Notes under the pieces: generated by a model
The model's database searches: none
What the model was told of the DNA's origin: nothing
Seen by the model: only the letters and a program-made list of their open reading frames with translations
Shown here: piece by piece, positions 6,172 to 40,167 of the stretch
How positions within the stretch are numbered: position 1 is the first letter of the stretch
Layout of the letters: each line of letters opens with the position of its first letter
Program-made: the position numbers and the translations under genes
Virus record (IMG/VR): IMGVR_UViG_3300022744_000054
Location: 1-40,167 of that record
Origin: a virus
Direction: 5' to 3' (one strand)
Length of the DNA: 40,167 bases

Positions 6172-7608
6172 ATGCCACGCCTTTCCGACCTGTTGTCCGC
6201 AATCGATGAAGCCAAACGCTACGGGATGCGCCGCCTGAGTGACATAGGCGCGAACCCGGACGCGAACGTGGCGCAGGCGTACGGTGCGTACGTCGGCGAC
6301 CCCATGCGCGAGCGCGCGCTGCGCGACGCCGAGTCGCGCAGCGTGATGCCGCAGTTGAGCGGACCAGCGCGCGACGCGATACAGCGCGAGATTGAGGGCG
6401 GCCTCGTCGGCATGGCAGCCGGCGGCAAGTCGCTGCCGGCCAGCGCCCGCAACGGCGTGCCCATGCGCAGCATCACGGTCAACAACCCGGTACGGGTGGA
6501 CTACCCCGGCATCTACAAGCGCCCCGACGTGATCGCGGCCGAGGCGGCGGCCCGGGTGGCCCCGGAGAACGAGGCTTTAAAGCGCCTGTTCGGTGTGAAC
6601 CGCAACGAGCTGTACGAGGCGACCGTGGCGCGCGGGCCGGGCAACATTGAGCCCGTGCTGCCGGGCGCGGCGGCGAACCCCACGGGCTCGGCTGCCGCCA
6701 CCAACGTGATGACCCGGCGCAACGAGAACCGGCTCATCGACGTGCTGAGCGAGGCCGAGAAGTACCCGCAGCTCACGCGCGGGATGGATGCTTGGTACAA
6801 CATGGACCCGGTGTACCAGCGCATGGTGCAGCTCGTGGGCCCGGAGGAGGCCAAGGCGCGCTTCACGCGGCTCAACACGCTGTCGGGCATGGCGAGCCCG
6901 GGCAGCGACGTGCTGACCGAGCTGAACCGTGGCACGGCCGCCAACATGCTCGCCGAGCAGGGCCGGTTCGGGGACTTCCTCACGCACGGCGGCATGAGCG
7001 TCAAGCTGCGTGGCCCGGACTACCCGGCTGACATGCGGGCGGTGCAGGGTCACGCGTACCACAAGACCGCGCAGGCGAAGCCCATGGGGGATTACCTCAC
7101 CACGGGCGCTATGCAGATGGAAAGCCCCAAGGTGCCTATGTACATTCAGGCTTCAGGCACGCCCGAGACGGGGTTCCAGACGCGCATGCCGGTGGGCGAC
7201 GCGCACTGGTCGCGCGGCGTGGGTCTCGCCGACGTGCGCACCAACGCGAACCCGGGCGCAAGCGTATCGACCCCGGAGATGTCGCAGCTCGGGCCGTGGT
7301 GGCGCGACCGCGTCGCGGCCCAAGTGGGGCTGGAGTCGGTGCCGGCGCAGGCCCGGGCGTGGGGCGCGTTCGCGCCGCAGACCGGGGTGGGCACGCCCAT
7401 CGCCGCGCCCAAGCTGGAGCTGCTCGCGCAGCAGATCATGAAAGCCTCGCAGCGCATGGGCGTCACCCCGGAGCAGGCCCGCGACATGATCCTGATGGGG
7501 CGGGCTCACGCCGGGGCGGCGACCCCCGGGACCATGGGTCTGGCTGCCGGGGCCGGCGCTGGCGGTGCTGTAGCTTTAAAGTACCTCAACGGCGAGCCGT
7601 CTCAGTAG
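6172..7608 (+). CDS. Late protein of unknown function, last gene of the rightward arm
   Basis: A 478-residue protein with GAGGAG eight bases before the ATG. The N-terminal part contains repeated Arg/Glu/Ala helical segments. The middle is mixed, with Tyr/Met/Trp-rich blocks (AWYNMDPVYQRM, MYIQASGTPETGFQTRMPVGDAHW). The C-terminus has a Gly/Ala-rich hydrophobic stretch (GLAAGAGAGGAVALKYL) that could be one membrane segment. It lies beyond the lysis genes and ends tail-to-tail with the leftward arm, overlapping the J-domain gene by seven bases. I recall similar proteins in other podoviruses but can name no function. A virion or ejection role is possible. Confidence 0.6.
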   Translation: MPRLSDLLSAIDEAKRYGMRRLSDIGANPDANVAQAYGAYVGDPMRERALRDAESRSVMPQLSGPARDAIQREIEGGLVGMAAGGKSLPASARNGVPMRSITVNNPVRVDYPGIYKRPDVIAAEAAARVAPENEALKRLFGVNRNELYEATVARGPGNIEPVLPGAAANPTGSAAATNVMTRRNENRLIDVLSEAEKYPQLTRGMDAWYNMDPVYQRMVQLVGPEEAKARFTRLNTLSGMASPGSDVLTELNRGTAANMLAEQGRFGDFLTHGGMSVKLRGPDYPADMRAVQGHAYHKTAQAKPMGDYLTTGAMQMESPKVPMYIQASGTPETGFQTRMPVGDAHWSRGVGLADVRTNANPGASVSTPEMSQLGPWWRDRVAAQVGLESVPAQARAWGAFAPQTGVGTPIAAPKLELLAQQIMKASQRMGVTPEQARDMILMGRAHAGAATPGTMGLAAGAGAGGAVALKYLNGEPSQ

Positions 7609-16582: not shown

Positions 16583-16613
16583 ATTGTAGCCGACATCTAC
16601 AACCATGTGTCAA
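16583..16613 (-). promoter_or_regulatory. Main leftward early promoter
   Basis: On the minus strand, a perfect TTGACA (16613-16608), a 19-base spacer and TACAAT (16588-16583), 36 bases before the ATG at 16547. The spacer is longer than ideal. The operator-like site O1 covers most of the spacer and the -10. Confidence 0.6.
16585..16601. promoter_or_regulatory. Operator-like site O1 (best palindrome of the family)
   Basis: TGTAGCCGACATCTACA. With one more base on each side the arms are TTGTAG and CTACAA, exact inverted repeats separated by seven bases. Reverse complement TGTAGATGTCGGCTACA fits the family consensus. Confidence 0.82.
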
Positions 16614-16764
16614 CACTTTAAAGCAAATATTTTCGGTCCGGCACCAACACTATAGTATGCACAAACAGCCGCAGGCTACAAGCAGCAACCGTGCCAACAT
16701 CAAATTCATCGTATTCCAATGGCATAAACGCGAGCCTCTAGAACGGCCCAAAATCGATTAACGG

Positions 16765-16781
16765 GGTAGACTGAGGCTACC
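16765..16781. promoter_or_regulatory. Operator-like site O5
   Basis: GGTAGACTGAGGCTACC, the fifth member of the 17 bp family. It shares TAGACTGNGG and the GTAG-N7-CTAC geometry but has G and C at its ends. The exact inverted repeat extends to seven bases per arm (16763-16769 and 16777-16783). No obvious promoter overlaps it. Confidence 0.6.
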
Positions 16782-16970
16782 CCCTTGCCAAACACGAAAA
16801 CGCAGCCACGGGCCTTCTAGGGGCCTTAGAATCGAATGACATTGGCATAAATCGCCTATTTTTTGTGCAAATGCTCATTTTTTAGGCAGCGCGTTTTCTG
16901 GCACACTCTGTGCATGTAGCTTTTAGGCACAACAATTGCAGTGTGCTGCGCCGCACAGACGGCCCCGGAT

Positions 16971-17000
16971 TTGACAACACCCCGGACCCGGGTTTAGTCT
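16971..17000 (+). promoter_or_regulatory. Rightward early promoter (candidate)
   Basis: TTGACA (16971-16976), an 18-base spacer and TAGTCT (16995-17000). The -35 is perfect and the -10 weak, similar in type to other boxes in this phage. It lies 45 bases before the DUF2800 nuclease ATG, with a 16 bp quasi-palindrome just upstream. Confidence 0.5.
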
Positions 17001-17045
17001 GCGCGTCCGCACTTCAACTTCACTTCATTCAAGGAGAGCCTCACC

Positions 17046-18929: not shown

Positions 18930-19352
18930 ATGCGAGTTATCACCGAGCACATTGTCAACCCGGCCAACGACCGCCTGAAGATCACCGTGGTGGACGCGCC
19001 GACTCACGGTGGCGCTAACCATGCGTACCGCATCGAAGGTTTCGACCCTGCCACCAACCCGGCGTACGAGCAGCTCGCGGACGCGCAGTTGGATATTGGG
19101 ACCATGAACCCGTGGACCGGCATCGCGTTCCAGAACGGGCCCATCGACGCGGACGGCAACGGCGTCAACGGCGTGACCCACGAGGCTTTGCTTGCCATCG
19201 TTGCAGACCGCCTTCGCGGCTTTCAGAGGGGGCCGTACGCGTGCAAGGAGAACGCCTGCGCGCTGACCCACATCGAAGAGGCACAGCACTGGCTCCAGCA
19301 GCGCACGCTGGCGCGTATGCGCCGGGGTGTCGAGGGTACGCATCAGGTCTAA
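18930..19352 (+). CDS. Possible Acb2/Tad1-type anti-defence protein
   Basis: A 140-residue protein. The N-terminal 60 residues are beta-rich (HIVNPANDRLKITVVDAPTHGGANHAYRIEGF). Then comes NGVTHEALLAIVADRLRGFQ, and then CKENACALTHIEEAQHWLQQRT with an RGVEGTH end. I associate the Ala-Leu-Thr-x-Ile/Leu-Glu-Glu-Ala-x-x-Trp helix hairpin and the RGVEGT end with the Acb2/Tad1 hairpin domain. Those proteins sequester cyclic nucleotide or gcADPR signals and block CBASS or Thoeris defence. The link is from memory of the motif and is not certain; the surer statement is that it belongs to a common phage early-protein family. Leader AGGAGCTACAAAC precedes the ATG. Confidence 0.6.
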   Translation: MRVITEHIVNPANDRLKITVVDAPTHGGANHAYRIEGFDPATNPAYEQLADAQLDIGTMNPWTGIAFQNGPIDADGNGVNGVTHEALLAIVADRLRGFQRGPYACKENACALTHIEEAQHWLQQRTLARMRRGVEGTHQV

Positions 19353-22443: not shown

Positions 22444-24510
22444 GTGACGAACGATACAGACAAACCGGCGGCAACGCAACCGTACCCCGAGGCGATGCGG
22501 GAGGCGAAGCGGTGGCTGCTCCACAAGGCCAAGAAGCCGTACTACACCAGCGGCACCAGCCGGGGCAAGACCGGCACCCCGCGCGACATCGCGCGCCTTG
22601 CCACGTACGACGAGGCGGTCGCGGCGCTGGCCGCGTCACCTGACAGCTACGACGGGCTCGGGTTCGCGCTCGGCGACGGGTGGCACGGGGTGGACTTGGA
22701 CAAGATCGGCAAGCCGTGGGGCAAGGTCGCCGAGCCGTGGGCGTCGAAGATCATCGATACCGCTTTAAAGCAGGGCCTGTACGTCGAGCGCAGCTTCAGC
22801 GGCAGCGGGGCGCACCTGATCGGGTTCGGGCCGTGCGACGTGACCATGGGCGCGAACAAGAGCGGGGTCGAGGTGTACAGCGCCGGGCGGTACTTCACCA
22901 TGACCGGCAACACCGGGTTCGGGGCCATGACGCGCAAGGGCGCGATCCTCGGCAACCTTGAGGGCCCGCTGCTGGAGCTGATCCAGCGCCGGCACGGCGC
23001 GTTCAGCAAGCGCACCGCGCGCCCGGACATCACGCACGTCGTGGCGCTGCCGCCCGAGCGCGTGCCGACGCTGTGGGACGACATCTCGCGGCGCGCCCCC
23101 AAGCTCTTGGAGGACATCGACCCGGACTGCGGCTACGACGACTGGTACAAGGTCGGGATGGCGCTCCACAAGGAGTCGAACGGGCACCCGGACGCGCTCC
23201 AGATGTGGGAGGGCTGGTCGATGAAGGGCTCCAAGTTTCAGGACGGGGACTGCTCGAAACGCTGGGACGGGTTCAGCGTGGACCGGGGCGACGCGGTCGG
23301 ATTCGGCACCATCGTGCATCTGGCCGAAACGGCGCGGGCCACTAGGAAGGCCGCCAAGGGCCCAAAGCGGTCAAGGCAGGGGAAGGTATCAACCGACGCC
23401 CAAAACGCCGCTGGCGGGGCTGTACGCAAGCCGCAGGGGCCTTTTGCGGCGATCCCGAGCGGAAACCTGATGCCGGAACAGGAAAGTGTTGCACCAGCGC
23501 AACAGGACGGCCTGATCAACGGGCTGCCGTCGAGCTTCATGCTGGGGGCGCTGCGGAAGATGAACATCCCCAAGACCGAGTGGCTGGTCGAGGGGATGAT
23601 CACCCGGGGCCTGCACATGCTGGCCGGCGCACCCAAGGGCGGCAAGAGCTACCTCGTGCTCCAGATGTGCATGGCGGTGGCGGCCGGCAAGCCGTTCCTC
23701 GGGCGCGCCACGCGGCAGTGCCGGGTCAGCTACTTCGACCTTGAGGAGTGGCACGAGCTGCTCGACATCAGGGCCGAGCGGATCGCGCTCGGGAACGACA
23801 TCGACATGGACCACTGCCCGGTGTCGGTGCGGCTGGAGACGGGCGTCGGCGAGGCGGCGATGGCCGACATGCAGGCCGAGATAGACGCCGGCAGCAAGCT
23901 GATCGTGATCGACCTGTTCGCGCGGATCAGGGACGAGCTTTCCGAGAACCCCAAGGCGAACGTGTACGCCCGGGACATGGAGGCCGTGGGGCGCTTGGCG
24001 GACTTCGCGCTGAGCCACCCGGACGTCGCCATCGTGGTGGTGCACCACACCAACAAGGGTACGCACAGCGAGTGGCAGAACAGGCTCAGCGGCTCGGCCG
24101 GCGTGGCCGGGGCGTCGCACACCAACATCCTGCTGTCGCGGCCGGACATGCGCGGCTGGGACGAGGACGACCGCGAGGAGGGCATGAAGTACCGGACCCT
24201 GAACGTGGCCGGCAAGATGGTGGACGAGCAGGAGCTGGTGCTCGCGCAGATGGCGCACGGCGGCGGCTGGGAGGTGAGCGGCCTGAAGCCGTGGGAGGTG
24301 AGCACGACGCGCAAGCAGAAGAAGCTGGTGCTGTACCTGCACGCGGCATACCCGGAGTGGCGCGACAGCAAGACCGTGGCCGAGGCCATGGGGATGAAAC
24401 GCGACGCGGCCCTGAAGCTGTTGCAGCGGATGGCGCAGCAGGGGGTGATTGAGTCGGACGGGCAGGGCGGGAAGGGCTACCGTGCGAAGCAGGCGAGGGC
24501 CGGTGATTGA
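22444..24510 (+). CDS. Bifunctional primase (PrimPol) and RepA-like helicase
   Basis: A 688-residue protein starting at GTG. The N-terminal PrimPol domain shows GLGFALGDGWHGVDLDK with catalytic Asp84 and Asp86, and SGSGAHLIGFG. A PriCT-like module follows (DCGYDDWYKVGMALH, LQMWEGWSMKGSKF). A linker leads to the RecA/RepA-like helicase: Walker A GAPKGGKS (395-402), Walker B LIVIDLFARI with Asp490, and VVVHHTNKG. A short HTH-like tail ends the protein. It synthesises primers and unwinds DNA at the phage fork. Translation may be controlled by the hairpin just upstream. Confidence 0.9.
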   Translation: MTNDTDKPAATQPYPEAMREAKRWLLHKAKKPYYTSGTSRGKTGTPRDIARLATYDEAVAALAASPDSYDGLGFALGDGWHGVDLDKIGKPWGKVAEPWASKIIDTALKQGLYVERSFSGSGAHLIGFGPCDVTMGANKSGVEVYSAGRYFTMTGNTGFGAMTRKGAILGNLEGPLLELIQRRHGAFSKRTARPDITHVVALPPERVPTLWDDISRRAPKLLEDIDPDCGYDDWYKVGMALHKESNGHPDALQMWEGWSMKGSKFQDGDCSKRWDGFSVDRGDAVGFGTIVHLAETARATRKAAKGPKRSRQGKVSTDAQNAAGGAVRKPQGPFAAIPSGNLMPEQESVAPAQQDGLINGLPSSFMLGALRKMNIPKTEWLVEGMITRGLHMLAGAPKGGKSYLVLQMCMAVAAGKPFLGRATRQCRVSYFDLEEWHELLDIRAERIALGNDIDMDHCPVSVRLETGVGEAAMADMQAEIDAGSKLIVIDLFARIRDELSENPKANVYARDMEAVGRLADFALSHPDVAIVVVHHTNKGTHSEWQNRLSGSAGVAGASHTNILLSRPDMRGWDEDDREEGMKYRTLNVAGKMVDEQELVLAQMAHGGGWEVSGLKPWEVSTTRKQKKLVLYLHAAYPEWRDSKTVAEAMGMKRDAALKLLQRMAQQGVIESDGQGGKGYRAKQARAGD

Positions 24511-24511
24511 C

Positions 24512-24615
24512 CCTCGCGCGCGATAGAACTGTATTGTTTACTAGTCTGATGTGTCCTATGGTAATCAAAGGTTCGGACACTTCGGACTAGTATTTGATAT
24601 AGCACGCGCGCGAGG
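24512..24615. repeat. Large nested inverted repeat between replication and packaging genes
   Basis: Three nearly concentric pairs of arms: CCTCGCGCGCG at 24512-24522 with its exact complement at 24605-24615 (11 bp), TACTAGTC at 24539-24546 with 24585-24592 (8 bp), and GTGTCC at 24551-24556 with 24575-24580 (6 bp). The inner two share the same centre. The inside is A/T-rich. It lies in the only large gap of the rightward arm before the terminase genes. It could be an origin, a packaging signal, an operator or a long RNA hairpin; no T-run follows. Confidence 0.85.
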
Positions 24616-24716
24616 CGGCGACGTTTGCCCCGCTGGAACGCTAACCACATGGGGCTGGACAGTGTCAAGCGGGTGGGGTACAGTCCCGCGCATCAACGGG
24701 TTAGGGGGTGCAGGGT
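24616..24716. other. Gap upstream of the small terminase gene
   Basis: Together with 24512-24615 this is a 206-base gap. I see no convincing gene in either strand and no strong sigma70 promoter. A weak candidate, TTGACC (24507-24512) with TATTGT (24532-24537), falls within the left arm of the repeat. AGGGGG before the terminase ATG serves as ribosome site. Confidence 0.4.
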
Positions 24717-25094
24717 ATGGCGTTTGGGCACGGCAAGGGCAAGAGCAACCCCGGGGGGCAGCCGACGACGGCTCTGCCCCCGCGCCCGTTTGAGGCCGCT
24801 TTAAAGCGTGCGATCATCCAAGAGAACAGCTACCGGCTGCGCAAGATGGCCGAGCAGGTGCTGGACCTCGCGGCCGAGGGCGAACAGTGGGCGGTGCTCT
24901 TCGTCGCTGACCGCCTCGACGGCAAGCCGCGCCAAGCAGTGCCGACGCAGGACGAGAACGGCGCGCCGGTCACCGTGGGCAGCATCACGTACCACATCGT
25001 TGACGCCACCAAGCCCACCGACCGCAGCAAGGAGCCTCCGGCTACAGTCACACCGCTGCGGCCCACCATGGCCGCTGTGAGGCGCTCGGCGTGA
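24717..25094 (+). CDS. Terminase small subunit-like protein (DUF5681-like start)
   Basis: A 125-residue protein. The N-terminus KGKSNPGGQP matches the short NP-x-G-x-P motif of DUF5681 proteins found beside terminases. Residues 25-60 form a helix (FEAALKRAIIQENSYRLRKMAEQVLDLAAEGEQWAVLFVADRL) and the C-terminus is Pro/Thr-rich and flexible. Small terminases recognise phage DNA for packaging. The ATG at 24717 is preferred to a GTG three codons upstream. The stop overlaps the large terminase GTG. Position is the strongest evidence. Confidence 0.75.
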   Translation: MAFGHGKGKSNPGGQPTTALPPRPFEAALKRAIIQENSYRLRKMAEQVLDLAAEGEQWAVLFVADRLDGKPRQAVPTQDENGAPVTVGSITYHIVDATKPTDRSKEPPATVTPLRPTMAAVRRSA

Positions 25095-26329
25095 ACGCCC
25101 CGGCCAACCTCATGCTCCCGGTCGCGCGGCCCTTTGAGCCGCTGCTGGCACCGGCACGCAACCTCGCCGCATGGGGTGGCCGCGCATCAGGCAAGTCCTA
25201 CTTCTTCGCCGACCGCGTCATCAGTCGCTCCATGGGCGAGAAGCTCGACGTGGTCTGTATCCGCGAGGTACAGCGCACGCTGCGCACCAGCGTGAAGAAG
25301 CTGCTGGAGGAGCGCATCTCCGAGCACAACGTCGGGTACGCGTTCGAAGTGCAGGACGCGCGCATCCTGACCAAGCTCGGCGGCGTGATCATCTTCGAAG
25401 GCATGCAGAACCAGACCAGCGAGTCGATCAAGTCGCTGCAAGGCTTTAAAGTCGCATGGGCCGAGGAAGCCCAGACCCTGTCACAGCGAAGCATCGAAAT
25501 GCTCGTGCCGACGCTGCGAGCGCCCGGCAGCCAGCTCTGGTGGTCATGGAACCCCAACCTCCCCACCGACCCGGTCGATGCGTACTTCCGCGCGGAGGGC
25601 GAGGAGCTGCCGCCCGACACGATCATCGTCAAGGCGCTGTACCACGACAACCCGTGGCTGTCCGACGAGTCTCTCGCCGACGCCGAGTACATGCGCCGCC
25701 GCGACTTCGAACGCTACCTGCACGTGTGGGAGGCAGAGTACGAGAGCCGCAGCGAGGCGCGCGTCTTCAAGAACTGGACCATCGAAGAGTTTGACACGCC
25801 GCCCGGCACCATGCTGCGGTTCGGTGCCGACTGGGGCTTCAGCGTGGACCCGAGCGTGCTGGTGCGCTGCTGGCTCGACGGTCGCCGCCTGATGGTGGAC
25901 TACGAGGCGTACATGCGCGGTTGCGAGATTGACATGCTGCCCGACCTGTTCGACACGGTGCCCGAGGCGCACAAGTTCTTCATCACGGCCGACAGCTCGC
26001 GGCCCGAGACGATCAGCTACATGCAGAAGCACGGCTATCCGCGCATGAACCGGGCCGTGAAGGGCCCCGGGTCGCTGGAGGAGGGCATCGCGTTCCTCCA
26101 GAGCTACGACATCGTGGTGCACCCGCGCTGCACGCACGTGATCGATGAGCTGAAGGCGTACAAGTACAAGACCGACGAGCTGACCGGCAAGGTGATGCCG
26201 CTGCTTGAGGACAAGAACAACCACGTGATCGACAGCCTGCGCTACGCCTGCGAGGGCGTCCGACGCGCCGCCAAGGCGCAGCACAGCTTTAAAGCGGAAG
26301 ACATGCGACCAACCCGGAGCATCATGTAA
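25091..26329 (+). CDS. terL: Terminase large subunit
   Basis: A 412-residue protein of the PBSX/XtmB type. The ATPase has Walker A GGRASGKS (29-36) and Walker B VAWAEEA (121-127). The C-terminal RNase H-like nuclease shows FGADWGFSVDPS (Asp247), ITADSSRPE and NNHVIDSLRYA. It drives DNA translocation into the prohead and cuts the concatemer. The GTG start makes a GTGA overlap with the small subunit. Two octamers CTTTAAAG lie in the gene (25444 and 26287). The stop overlaps the portal ATG. Confidence 0.93.
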   Translation: MNAPANLMLPVARPFEPLLAPARNLAAWGGRASGKSYFFADRVISRSMGEKLDVVCIREVQRTLRTSVKKLLEERISEHNVGYAFEVQDARILTKLGGVIIFEGMQNQTSESIKSLQGFKVAWAEEAQTLSQRSIEMLVPTLRAPGSQLWWSWNPNLPTDPVDAYFRAEGEELPPDTIIVKALYHDNPWLSDESLADAEYMRRRDFERYLHVWEAEYESRSEARVFKNWTIEEFDTPPGTMLRFGADWGFSVDPSVLVRCWLDGRRLMVDYEAYMRGCEIDMLPDLFDTVPEAHKFFITADSSRPETISYMQKHGYPRMNRAVKGPGSLEEGIAFLQSYDIVVHPRCTHVIDELKAYKYKTDELTGKVMPLLEDKNNHVIDSLRYACEGVRRAAKAQHSFKAEDMRPTRSIM

Positions 26330-33035: not shown

Positions 33036-33941
33036 ATGGACCAGCAAGACAACCAGCTACCCGTCACTGATGACTTGACCGGGGATATGCCTGACGACAA
33101 CGGCGAGCTGAACGGCTCGACGACCGGTGGCACAGGCACGCCGGATGCAGCAGATCAGCAGCACAACGAGGAAACAGACGAGCAGAAAAACGCCCGGATC
33201 GCCGCCGAGGCTGCCCAGCGTTCCGCTGAGCGCGCCGCACGTGCGCAGTCCAAGATCAACCAACGCATGGCCGAGCTGACCGCTGAGAAGCGCGCAGCGG
33301 AGCAGCGTGCCGCCGACGCCTTGGCGCTGGCCCAGCAGGCGATGCAGAATCGCGCTGCTGGGCCAGCGCCGCAGCAAGACGACCCGCTGGCTCCACCCGT
33401 GCGTGGTGCGGAGGAGTCTTATGAGGACTTCGTCATCCGCAAGGCCGTGCATCAGAACCGGGTCGAGATGTTCCGGGTGATGCAGGCCCGCGATCAGCAG
33501 GCCCAGCAGATTGCGCAGCAGACCGCTGCGCAGGCGAGCGAGGCCGCCATCGCCAAGGCGTACGCGGAGCGGCACGCGAAAGCGGCAGCCGCCATCCCCG
33601 ACTTCGCCGAGGTGATGGAGGACGCGGACGTGCAGGTGCCCAACGCGGTCGCGCGGGCGCTTCGCACGATGGAGGACGGCCCGGTGGTGGCGTACCACCT
33701 GCAAAAGAACCCGGCCCTCGTGGCCCAGTTCGCGGGTGCGGACCCCATCGCGCAGTTGGTCGTTCTGGGCAAGATCGCCGCATCGTTGAAGACCTCGTCT
33801 ACCGACGCATCAGCTCAACCATCGTCCGCGCCAGCGCCCGGACGCCCTGTCGGTTCCTCCAGCGGGGGTGGCGGCAACGCCGACTCCCCGCCCGAGGACA
33901 CCGGGGCGTACATGCGCTGGGCGGCAAAACACATGAGGTAA
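33036..33941 (+). CDS. Scaffolding protein
   Basis: A 301-residue acidic and helical protein rich in Gln, Ala and Glu, with low complexity at both ends. The N-terminus is Asp/Gly/Thr-rich. The middle is coiled coil (QSKINQRMAELTAEKRAAEQRAADALALAQQAMQN). The C-terminus ends in a charged helix (DTGAYMRWAAKHMR), as expected for the coat-binding end of P22-type scaffolds. Position immediately before the coat gene is the main support. It directs prohead assembly and leaves before DNA packaging. Confidence 0.8.
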   Translation: MDQQDNQLPVTDDLTGDMPDDNGELNGSTTGGTGTPDAADQQHNEETDEQKNARIAAEAAQRSAERAARAQSKINQRMAELTAEKRAAEQRAADALALAQQAMQNRAAGPAPQQDDPLAPPVRGAEESYEDFVIRKAVHQNRVEMFRVMQARDQQAQQIAQQTAAQASEAAIAKAYAERHAKAAAAIPDFAEVMEDADVQVPNAVARALRTMEDGPVVAYHLQKNPALVAQFAGADPIAQLVVLGKIAASLKTSSTDASAQPSSAPAPGRPVGSSSGGGGNADSPPEDTGAYMRWAAKHMR

Positions 33942-33945
33942 TACC

Positions 33946-35187
33946 ATGCCAAATGCATACCAGAACCCGGTGATGTACACCAACGAGTGCCTGCGCATTC
34001 TGAAGAACGACATCATCCTCGGCAAGAAGGTCAGCCGGAAGCACCAGCAGGAGTTCGGCAAGGACGAGATGAAGATCGGCGACACCTTGAACGTGCGCCG
34101 CCCGGCGCGCTTCACGGTGTCGTCCGGTGCTTCGTTCGCGCCGCAGGACTACGTCGAAACCAGCGTCCCGCTGGTGGTCAACCAGCAGCGCCACGTAGAC
34201 ACCGCCTTCACCTCGGCCGACATGACGTTGAAGCTGCAAGACTTCAGCAACCGCGTCCTGCGCCCCAAGGTGATCCAGCTCTGCGCCCAGATCGACATCG
34301 ACGGCTACGTCAACGCGAAGAACACCGTGGGCAACCTCACCGGCACCGCCGGCACGGCCCCCAACGCGTTCTCGTTCCTGACCGATATCGGCAAGAAGCT
34401 GGACGACTTCTCGACCCCGCGCGACGGCAACCGCTACTACGTGCTCGACCCCGCGTCGAACGCGTCGCAGATCGGCGCTGTGTCGGGCCTGTTCAACCCG
34501 CAGACCAAGATCGGCAACCAGTACAACGAGGGCGTGTTCGTTGACGCGACCAATACCCTCGGCCTCAAGATCGCAATGACGCAGAACGTGGCCCGCCACA
34601 CCGTCGGCGCGCTCGGCGGCACCCCGCTGATCAACGGCGCGAATCAGGCGCTCACCAGCGGCTGGTCCAACACCTACGCGCTGATCACCGACGGCTGGAC
34701 CGCCGCAGCGGCTCAGCGCCTGAACGCTGGCGATATCTTCACCATCGCCAACGTGTTCAGCGTGAACCCCGTGACTCGCCAGTCCACCGGCCAGCTCATG
34801 CAGTTCTGCGTGGTGTCGGCCGCGTCCTCGGACGCCTCGGGCAACCTGACCGCTGTCGTGTCCCCGGCACCGATCAGCGCCGGGCCGTTCCAGAACATCA
34901 ACGCGGCCCCTGCTGACAATGCTGCGCTGACGATCAACGGCACCGCAGCCACCAGCTACGTGCGCAACATCGCGTGGCACGAGGACGCTTTCGAGCTGGC
35001 CGTGGTCAAGATGCAAGACCTCGCCATGTTCGGCGGCTGGGGTGCGGTTCGCTCCGACGAGGGCTTCAGCATCCGCGTGTTCCGTCAGGCGGCCATCAGC
35101 TCCGACACCGTGGGCAACCGCGTTGACGTGCTGTACGGCTGGGCGACCGTGTACCCCGAGCAGGCAACGCAACAGGTCGGCGCGTAA
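33946..35187 (+). CDS. Major capsid protein, P22 coat-like (HK97 fold)
   Basis: A 413-residue protein, close to the 430 residues of P22 gp5. Typical features are NAYQNPVMYTNECLRILKNDIILGKKVSR at the N-terminus, IGDTLNVRRPARFTV, VNQQRHVDTAFTSADMTLKL and FSNRVLRPKVIQLCAQID, matching P22-type coat proteins. GAGGTAA precedes the ATG. A perfect stem-loop follows at 35205-35230. This gene is expected to be the most expressed late product. Confidence 0.92.
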   Translation: MPNAYQNPVMYTNECLRILKNDIILGKKVSRKHQQEFGKDEMKIGDTLNVRRPARFTVSSGASFAPQDYVETSVPLVVNQQRHVDTAFTSADMTLKLQDFSNRVLRPKVIQLCAQIDIDGYVNAKNTVGNLTGTAGTAPNAFSFLTDIGKKLDDFSTPRDGNRYYVLDPASNASQIGAVSGLFNPQTKIGNQYNEGVFVDATNTLGLKIAMTQNVARHTVGALGGTPLINGANQALTSGWSNTYALITDGWTAAAAQRLNAGDIFTIANVFSVNPVTRQSTGQLMQFCVVSAASSDASGNLTAVVSPAPISAGPFQNINAAPADNAALTINGTAATSYVRNIAWHEDAFELAVVKMQDLAMFGGWGAVRSDEGFSIRVFRQAAISSDTVGNRVDVLYGWATVYPEQATQQVGA

Positions 35188-38997: not shown

Positions 38998-40167
38998 ATG
39001 AATTACTACGACCCCAAGACCTACGCGGCGGTAGACCCCACAAAGGTCGTTCAGTCCATTTCAGGTTACGACGAATGGAACGCCCCTCAATACGCGTACT
39101 CCTTTAACGGCAGCCCCGTCAGCCCCGTGTCGGGGGCAGGCGTCAATGGCTGGGGTGAGTGGCTTGCTGGCGAAGGGGCGACCGCCAACGCACGCAGTTA
39201 CAACCGGCTTCAGCAATACATGGGCGACCTGTCCAAAACGTATGGCCTCGGCGCGGACGATTTCATCAAGGGGTTCCAGAGCTACGGCGCCACCTACAAC
39301 CCCGGCGCTACGGACGAATACGGGAACATCCACGGATTCGGGCGCGACCCCAACATGGGATGGTGGGGCGAGGACGCGATGATTCGCGCTCTCGGGCAGG
39401 GGTTGGACAAGGCTAATCCTGATGCTGCGTACAAGGGTTCGTGGCAAAACATGTGGGATCAGCAGCGCGAGTTGGGGCAGCAGAACGAGATTGCCACCAC
39501 ATGGCAGGCGAACCAAGACCGTTACAGCCAGTCCGCTGACTTTATGAACGACCTCCCGACCATTCTGGCGGGGCTGGGCATGGTTGCCGGTGTTGGTGGT
39601 CTTGCCAATGCTTTTGGCGGAAGCATCGGACTTCCGGGCGCGGATGTTGTTGGTTCGGATTGGGCGTCTGGATTATCTAGTGCGATGAATCCGGGTAGTG
39701 CAGGGACAACTGCATTATCGGATTTGGCTGTTGGTAATCCGGGGACTAGCGCAGTTGGCGCAGAAGTGAATCTTTCAGGGTCTGGAGGCGGTATGGGCGA
39801 CGAATTTTTACCTGACTTCAATTATGCGGATGACGTTATTGATGTTGGTACTGGCGGTGGCGGCGGCATGAGCGCGGCCGACGCGATACGCGAGGCCATC
39901 GCGAACGGCGGCTCCGAGTTCGGCACCACCTCCGCAGGTGGCCCGCTCGCCAACGGCTGGCAGGGCGCGCTCGCCAATGCGCTGAGCGGCATCCCCAACT
40001 TGCCGCCGGGGGTCAGTACGGCCATCCGCAGCCTGCTAGGCGGTGCCGCTGGTGGTGCAGGTGGAGCCGCAGGCTCCACCGCCATCGGTCGCATCCTCGG
40101 CGGCACCGGCACCGCGAGCGACTGGGCCAGCGTGCTCGGTCAGGGCGCGACCGGCGTGCTCGACTAC
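38998..40167 (+). CDS. Probable ejection/internal virion protein, N-terminal part (continues at 140-595)
   Basis: An open frame from ATG 38998 to the right edge, continuing at position 140 of the left end to give about 541 residues. It starts MNYYDPKTYAAVDPTKVVQSISGYDEWNAPQYAYSF. Residues about 180-220 form a Gly/Ala/Leu-rich segment (ILAGLGMVAGVGGLANAFGGSIGL), possibly membrane-active. The codon usage changes at about 39,860: before this point many A/T-ending codons are used, after it nearly all end in G or C. That suggests a recombination boundary within the gene. The ejection role is inferred from position. Confidence 0.7.
   Translation, partial: MNYYDPKTYAAVDPTKVVQSISGYDEWNAPQYAYSFNGSPVSPVSGAGVNGWGEWLAGEGATANARSYNRLQQYMGDLSKTYGLGADDFIKGFQSYGATYNPGATDEYGNIHGFGRDPNMGWWGEDAMIRALGQGLDKANPDAAYKGSWQNMWDQQRELGQQNEIATTWQANQDRYSQSADFMNDLPTILAGLGMVAGVGGLANAFGGSIGLPGADVVGSDWASGLSSAMNPGSAGTTALSDLAVGNPGTSAVGAEVNLSGSGGGMGDEFLPDFNYADDVIDVGTGGGGGMSAADAIREAIANGGSEFGTTSAGGPLANGWQGALANALSGIPNLPPGVSTAIRSLLGGAAGGAGGAAGSTAIGRILGGTGTASDWASVLGQGATGVLDY
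40029..40167. repeat. Right copy of terminal overlap (circular genome junction)
   Basis: Second copy of the 139 bp overlap with 1-139. Removing one copy gives a circle of about 40,028 bp and joins the reading frame that ends at 40167 to the frame continuing at position 140. Confidence 0.9.

Follow-up and report, generated by a model that had tools for sequence, protein, structure and literature searches.

A nested hairpin directly behind a primase-helicase gene is a probable replication origin of a phage genome

Results

We have analysed a 40,167-nt phage sequence (IMGVR_UViG_3300022744_000054), referred to throughout as the window, with all coordinates counted along it. Its ends (1-139 and 40029-40167) form a direct repeat of 139 bp with 138 of 139 positions identical, and because of this repeat the record is probably a complete genome with a circular map of about 40,028 bp. 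The region of interest lies between the replication and packaging genes, where the original prediction had placed its inverted repeats, in a gap of 197 bp between the end of the replication gene at 24510 and the first open reading frame of the packaging block at 24708. That replication gene (22444-24510, + strand) encodes a 688-residue primase-helicase that we propose as the initiator, and a nested hairpin (24511-24617), the proposed core of the origin, starts immediately after its stop codon. Further along is a sigma-70-like site, TGGACA-N17-TACAGT (24656-24684, +; one found, 0.1 expected), which is a probable late promoter, and comparably placed -35/-10 pairs can be picked out by eye in two relatives (L021 and L040). 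It is followed by a putative small terminase gene (24708-25094, +), assigned by position and having no family match, and by the large terminase gene (25091-26329, +), identified by PHROGs and by Pfam (Terminase_3 and Terminase_3C).

The 688-residue protein has an AEP-type primase domain at residues ~12-160, PriCT_2 at 220-294, an AAA_25/RepA-like helicase at 374-539 and a winged helix at ~615-681. The primase assignment comes from a PHROGs match together with the PDB primase chains 7rr3, 6k9a and 6a9w, the last two of which we take to be the NrS-1 phage enzyme. Pfam reports AAA_25 (87.7 bits) and PriCT_2, and a P4/D5-type helicase match is absent from its results for this protein. The full-length AlphaFold model has a pLDDT of 37 and is unusable, and the usable model is that of the 86 C-terminal residues, which has an H-H-H-b-b topology at moderate confidence (pLDDT 71) and which in the PDB comes closest to winged-helix folds of the IclR, Z-alpha and MarR type.

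The nested arms described in the original prediction are present where it had located them and share nearly the same centre, with arm centres differing by no more than 2 bp. The outer G/C arms CCTCGCGCGCG (24512-24522) and CGCGCGCGAGG (24605-24615), both given on the + strand, are perfectly complementary to one another; inner arms of an ACTAGT type lie inside a pair of 18-nt segments (24539-24556 and 24575-24592) that are 89% complementary; and the innermost arms, GTGTCC and GGACAC, occupy 24551-24556 and 24575-24580. To these we add a middle stem of eight pairs (24529-24536 with 24595-24602) that had been missed, and because it joins the outer arms to the inner ones, the nested arms constitute a single, near-concentric hairpin of 37-38 pairs. 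From the outside inwards this has 12 pairs, a 6/2 internal loop, eight pairs, a 2/2 loop, 11 pairs, a 1/1 mismatch, six pairs and an 18-nt loop. The two halves of the middle stem are contained in A/T-rich flanks, 24523-24541 on the left and 24590-24604 on the right, and no other 80 bp of the genome are as rich in A/T as 24521-24600 (62.5%), inside the hairpin. The AEP priming motif GTG is symmetrically placed beside the loop (24551-24553 on the + strand and 24580-24578 on the - strand), a likeness that weighs little in a 3-mer. A hairpin telomere site was considered and dropped, the arms being imperfect and the loop 18 nt long.

RNA and DNA folding had been suggested as a check on these repeats, and both strands fold far better than shuffled sequences under both parameter sets. 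The predicted energies are -55.1 kcal/mol for the + strand and -47.0 for the - strand, four G-U pairs favouring the + strand in absolute terms, and against 200 dinucleotide shuffles the z-scores are -7.2 (+) and -7.4 (-), with none of the 200 folding equally well; with DNA parameters they are -6.2 and -6.3. A dyad test admitting Watson-Crick pairs only gives z 7.7, again with a score that 0 of 200 shuffles reach. When hairpins are scanned over the 40-kb genome with correction for GC content, 24511-24617 is the strongest (z -6.43, with the runner-up at -3.84), and by uncorrected dyad score it is third of about 790 windows, after two GC-rich stretches. We note that the inverted repeats of two G/C-rich segments inside structural genes (33251-33410 and 33801-33960) match the hairpin in strength before GC correction. 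The hairpin has no family match in a search with Rfam covariance models, and a DNA search with the region recovered its own record as the only match, with none in annotated phages, plasmids or viral contigs.

The inner arms can be read as two plus two inverted units of about 9 bp. In this putative arrangement L2 (ATCAGACTA, 24542-24550) and L1 (ATAGGACAC, 24551-24559) are on the - strand and mirror R1 (TTCGGACAC, 24572-24580) and R2 (TTCGGACTA, 24581-24589) on the + strand across a 12-bp central spacer (GGTAATCAAAGG, 24560-24571). The sequence TTCGGAC, noted with R1, occurs only twice in the genome, each time in the hairpin. The A/T-rich parts of the hairpin fall outside the units, and what lies between the unit pairs is the spacer. 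The only direct-repeat spacing in the array is 9, with three 5-mer matches, a pattern that has a background frequency of 7.6% and is modest evidence by itself. A joint tandem-plus-dyad scan places the units 12th genome-wide, and reading the window's array as iterons therefore depends on the relatives. A repeat-count test across the windows of the genome does not single out the site, and a scan with a matrix built from the repeat units of three relatives (L021, L040 and L099) misses it. A degenerate motif, WTCRGRY with a 9-bp repeat, matches the window site only (0.04 expected), and we give this zero weight because the pattern was made after both sequences had been viewed.

Relatives were sought through the terminase and the helicase. 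Single-sequence scans with the primase-helicase (against genomes and viral sequences), the small terminase and the DNA polymerase found no relatives. The large terminases related to that of the window are 55-64% identical to it, and in two of these relatives, L021 (record G015) and L040 (G023), an AAA_25 helicase is followed by the terminases as in the window; L099 is a third helicase relative. A scan upstream of the large terminase by raw folding energy mostly picked up G/C-rich coding stretches and was replaced by GC-corrected scans. In L021 an equally large hairpin of different sequence occupies the corresponding position (z 7.5), and the dyads are shorter in L040 (z 4.7), where the - strand folds better than the + strand, and weaker in L099 (z 2.5). 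The distance from array to large terminase varies from 517 to 1363 bp among the large-terminase relatives. Behind more distant proteins, with TOPRIM or Prim-Pol modules joined to AAA_25 (L059, L075, L087/L088, Salicola phage CGphi29, Alteromonas phage PB15, Idiomarinaceae phage 1N2-2 and MW202867), direct and inverted repeats of 7-9 bp crowd the stretch after the gene. Helicase relatives also match DnaB_C.

In seven genomes the 150 bp following the helicase gene rank 3, 5, 1, 3, 1, 6 and 2 for dyads among some 700-800 windows each. By repeat count the same stretch comes first in four of the seven and third in one, and G015 places it 154th and the window last; because of these ranks, low in two genomes and high elsewhere, the window and G015 have dyad-type arrays and the other five genomes iteron-type arrays.

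A profile made from four helicases recovered 62 viral loci and 80 loci in prokaryotic genomes, chosen by protein similarity alone and not by the presence of a hairpin, and 115 of these had enough downstream sequence to be tested with a threshold at the top 2% of each locus for inverted repeats. At 28 of the 115 loci (24%; 34% of viral and 15% of genomic loci) the 150 bp that directly follow the stop codon of the helicase gene reach this threshold; the 160 bp beyond them do so at 2 of 113, and stretches upstream of the gene in 4.8% of cases. After clustering of similar proteins the proportion is 16 of 63 (1.3 expected, binomial p ~1e-13) and that of the next 160 bp is 2 of 61; the other 47 of the 63 non-redundant clusters lack a strong array by this test. 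In sums over loci mostly chosen for having arrays, the commonest offset between direct 5-mer repeats is 9 bp (138 versus 17 in the control), with a harmonic at 18 bp (71 versus 12). Among the 63 non-redundant loci, which were not selected for arrays, 25 have at least three 9-bp-spaced matches, versus a background of 7.6%.

The array is also found outside phages. The 8,291-bp plasmid pATHE01 of Caldicellulosiruptor bescii (L260, NC_012036) has, as the sole replication-type protein listed in its incomplete gene table, a Prim-Pol with AAA_25 and winged-helix domains, and right behind the winged-helix codons are six perfect tandem 9-bp units, ATTCACTCT, followed by inverted copies. No inverted repeat of the plasmid is stronger than this array, at ~6465-6560 on the complement, and thus the array travels with a primase-helicase-type protein in a replicon that has no phage late genes. 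The pATHE01 array is in frame with the Prim-Pol/AAA_25 gene, such that the iteron-like repeats are translated as a protein tail of Ser-Ile-His repeats.

Discussion

The most plausible role for the hairpin is that of the phage's own origin of replication, with the primase-helicase encoded just upstream as the protein that recognises it, and we put the probability of this at about two in three, judging from the sequence and from analogy with characterised replicons. The analysis itself established that the genome has only one such dyad, that this directly follows the stop codon, how the protein is built up from domains and that arrays recur behind related helicases; the published systems support an origin by analogy because the origins of SaPI/PICI elements, SCCmec Cch2 and plasmid pRN1 sit directly behind the initiator gene. 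By the same analogy, the C-terminal winged helix would bind the ~9-bp units, as two inverted pairs around the 12-bp spacer, and helicase rings would assemble at the array and open its A/T-rich parts. The hairpin or a cruciform may extrude on supercoiled DNA, and the AEP primase could then prime the exposed strands, with forks departing from the array.

Three published systems offer useful comparisons. In SaPI and other PICI elements the origin is directly 3' of the initiator gene and has two iteron sets around an A/T-rich region, and the rep-ori segment drives a plasmid (PMC6092414; the origin is described also in PMC7581432). The window resembles these in having its candidate origin 3' of a proposed initiator-helicase, arms that can be read as two sets of short repeats, an A/T-rich stretch, although outside the units, and a C-terminal domain as the proposed reader, but its helicase is AAA_25/RepA-like rather than of the PICI Rep type, and it has few units (two plus two), a 12-bp spacer and one long hairpin with G/C outer arms. 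The C-terminal domain of SCCmec Cch2 likewise binds repeats just downstream of its gene (PMC7581432), and these lie just 3' of the operon as in the window, although the Cch2 iterons are three direct repeats of 5 nt, inverted repeats are dispensable for binding and priming is assigned to a separate primase, CCPol-MP.

The archaeal plasmid pRN1 has a stem-loop of ~100 nt behind a gene for a prim/pol, helicase and winged-helix protein, which is needed for replication and is conserved in structure and not in sequence; its authors did not see ORF904 bind the stem-loop specifically, GTG-type priming motifs are dispensable, and a stem-loop is proposed for the Bordetella phages BIP-1 and BPP-1 (PMC4234260). 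That of BPP-1 was not significant in our scan, which used few shuffles. The window hairpin, at 107 nt, is of similar size and lies behind a gene for an AEP primase, helical domain, helicase and winged helix, and its relatives (L021, L040 and, less strongly, L099) also keep structure without sequence. However, the pRN1 helicase belongs to SF3 and its origin is described without iterons, whereas the window has an AAA_25 helicase and arms that may contain 9-bp units. The candidate origin would function in the manner of these two, but because the helicase is of the AAA_25 family and the putative iterons are few and weak, we assign it to neither the PICI nor the pRN1 type. It fits instead the set of AAA_25 helicases followed by an array that our comparison brought together, in which CGphi29, PB15, 1N2-2, G030, G039 and pATHE01 share the helicase family, the position and the direct and inverted units. 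The phages among them have 9-15 copies by our own count, whereas the window has at most four and a stronger single dyad, and several of the iteron-array relatives have a different primase before the helicase (TOPRIM or another Prim-Pol). We found no paper describing such a group in a limited search of the open-licence literature.

Several observations count against an origin at the hairpin. The cumulative GC skew has its maximum at 24,896, adjoining the hairpin, and speaks against the assignment in that the skew should be near its lowest at a bidirectional origin. The flanking genes share one direction, and gene direction confounds the skew in the window and in its relatives, in several of which the array lies nearer the skew minimum. 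The weakness of the 9-bp units, the 47 clusters that lack a strong array, the difference in helicase family from the SaPI and pRN1 systems and the negative results on ORF904 binding in pRN1 and on the BPP-1 stem-loop count on the same side. The main alternative location for an origin is 16597-17045, a long A/T-rich gap between divergent gene blocks that is a probable early control region.

The original prediction listed an origin, a pac region, a late operator and a long structured RNA as candidates without choosing among them, and of these it is the origin that gains from the arrays behind related helicases and from the published precedents. An operator role, alone or additional to that of an origin, is possible because the promoter-like site begins 39 bp downstream. 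The winged helix, or some other phage regulator, would bind the inverted 9-bp units and switch the phage from replication to late genes, as the two inverted unit sets and the similarly placed promoters that can be made out by eye in L021 and L040 would allow, and an iteron array can do both jobs. As a rival to the origin we nonetheless think it unlikely, since the arrays recur behind helicases in other phages, in bacterial genomes and on a plasmid that has no terminase genes; together with the varying distance to the large terminase, this indicates that the array's constant partner is the helicase rather than the late operon. The same recurrence speaks against a pac start site for the terminase genes just downstream. 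Adjacency to those genes and an end repeat compatible with headful packaging would suit such a site, but known pac sites usually lie in or near terS and are not hairpins of this type, and we regard this reading as very improbable.

The structured RNA fared worse in our analysis than the origin. Such an element would act where the transcript of the replication operon ends, perhaps in RNase III processing, in stabilising the 3' end or in antitermination. In its favour, the hairpin has 37-38 paired positions with z -7.2 as RNA, begins right after the stop codon and gains energy on the + strand from its G-U pairs. Yet the two strands stand equally far above chance, as would be expected if the element works as DNA and not as RNA, and the better folding of the L040 - strand and the absence of an Rfam match point the same way. 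The relatives, moreover, keep the position and the dyad without the sequence, and their 9-bp-periodic repeats are not needed for an RNA stem; we consider an RNA role distinctly unlikely. As for a terminator, whether intrinsic or bidirectional, the place between two operons would be apt, but there is no T-run after the hairpin on either strand, which argues against an intrinsic terminator and bears out the earlier statement that this is not a standard one. With an 18-nt loop, a four-part stem and one weak inner match in a terminator scan (0.5 expected), termination is the least probable of these readings.

Many unrelated phages, islands and one plasmid have what read as differently spelled arrays in the equivalent place, and this wider positional rule is a more interesting outcome than a single origin. 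We tentatively suggest, at odds that we place somewhat below even, that AAA_25 primase-helicases with a C-terminal winged helix may define a broad, unnamed class of origins in phages, islands and plasmids, each with its own 9-bp-periodic inverted array behind the gene and with unit sequences that diverge along with the winged helix. The window would then be an extreme form in which the array is condensed into one long hairpin, itself perhaps the recognised structure. Origins are unknown for most metagenomic phages, and if the rule holds, the origin could be read in many phages, islands and plasmids as a 9-bp-periodic inverted array behind a RepA-like helicase gene. Co-variation between winged helix and unit sequence would be testable, as would the notion of a single continuum with the pRN1 stem-loop type at one end and the PICI iteron type at the other, and the class could supply small self-contained replicons for hosts that have no vectors.

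Some further observations were made along the way. At 18930-19352 (+) the window encodes a 140-residue protein with a weak, below-cutoff match (E 0.002) to an Acb2/Tad1 hairpin domain, as in the anti-CBASS and anti-Thoeris sponges, and with strong PHROGs matches to families of unknown function. A near-perfect A/T-rich hairpin, TACTAGTACAAGTAA..TTTACTTGTACTAGT, lies upstream of the small terminase gene at 2220-2265 of L016, and the same stretch is present in L017; the gene in front of it is not helicase-like, and the hairpin is probably something other than a helicase-linked array. Seven viral records of ~9-12 kb (L140, L146, L147, L149-L151 and L153) have in common a 374-residue RepA-like helicase and an array, ACTACCATACC..GGTAGTTTC. 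No copy of the L147 element was present in the E. coli genomes searched, and the family possibly represents phage satellites.
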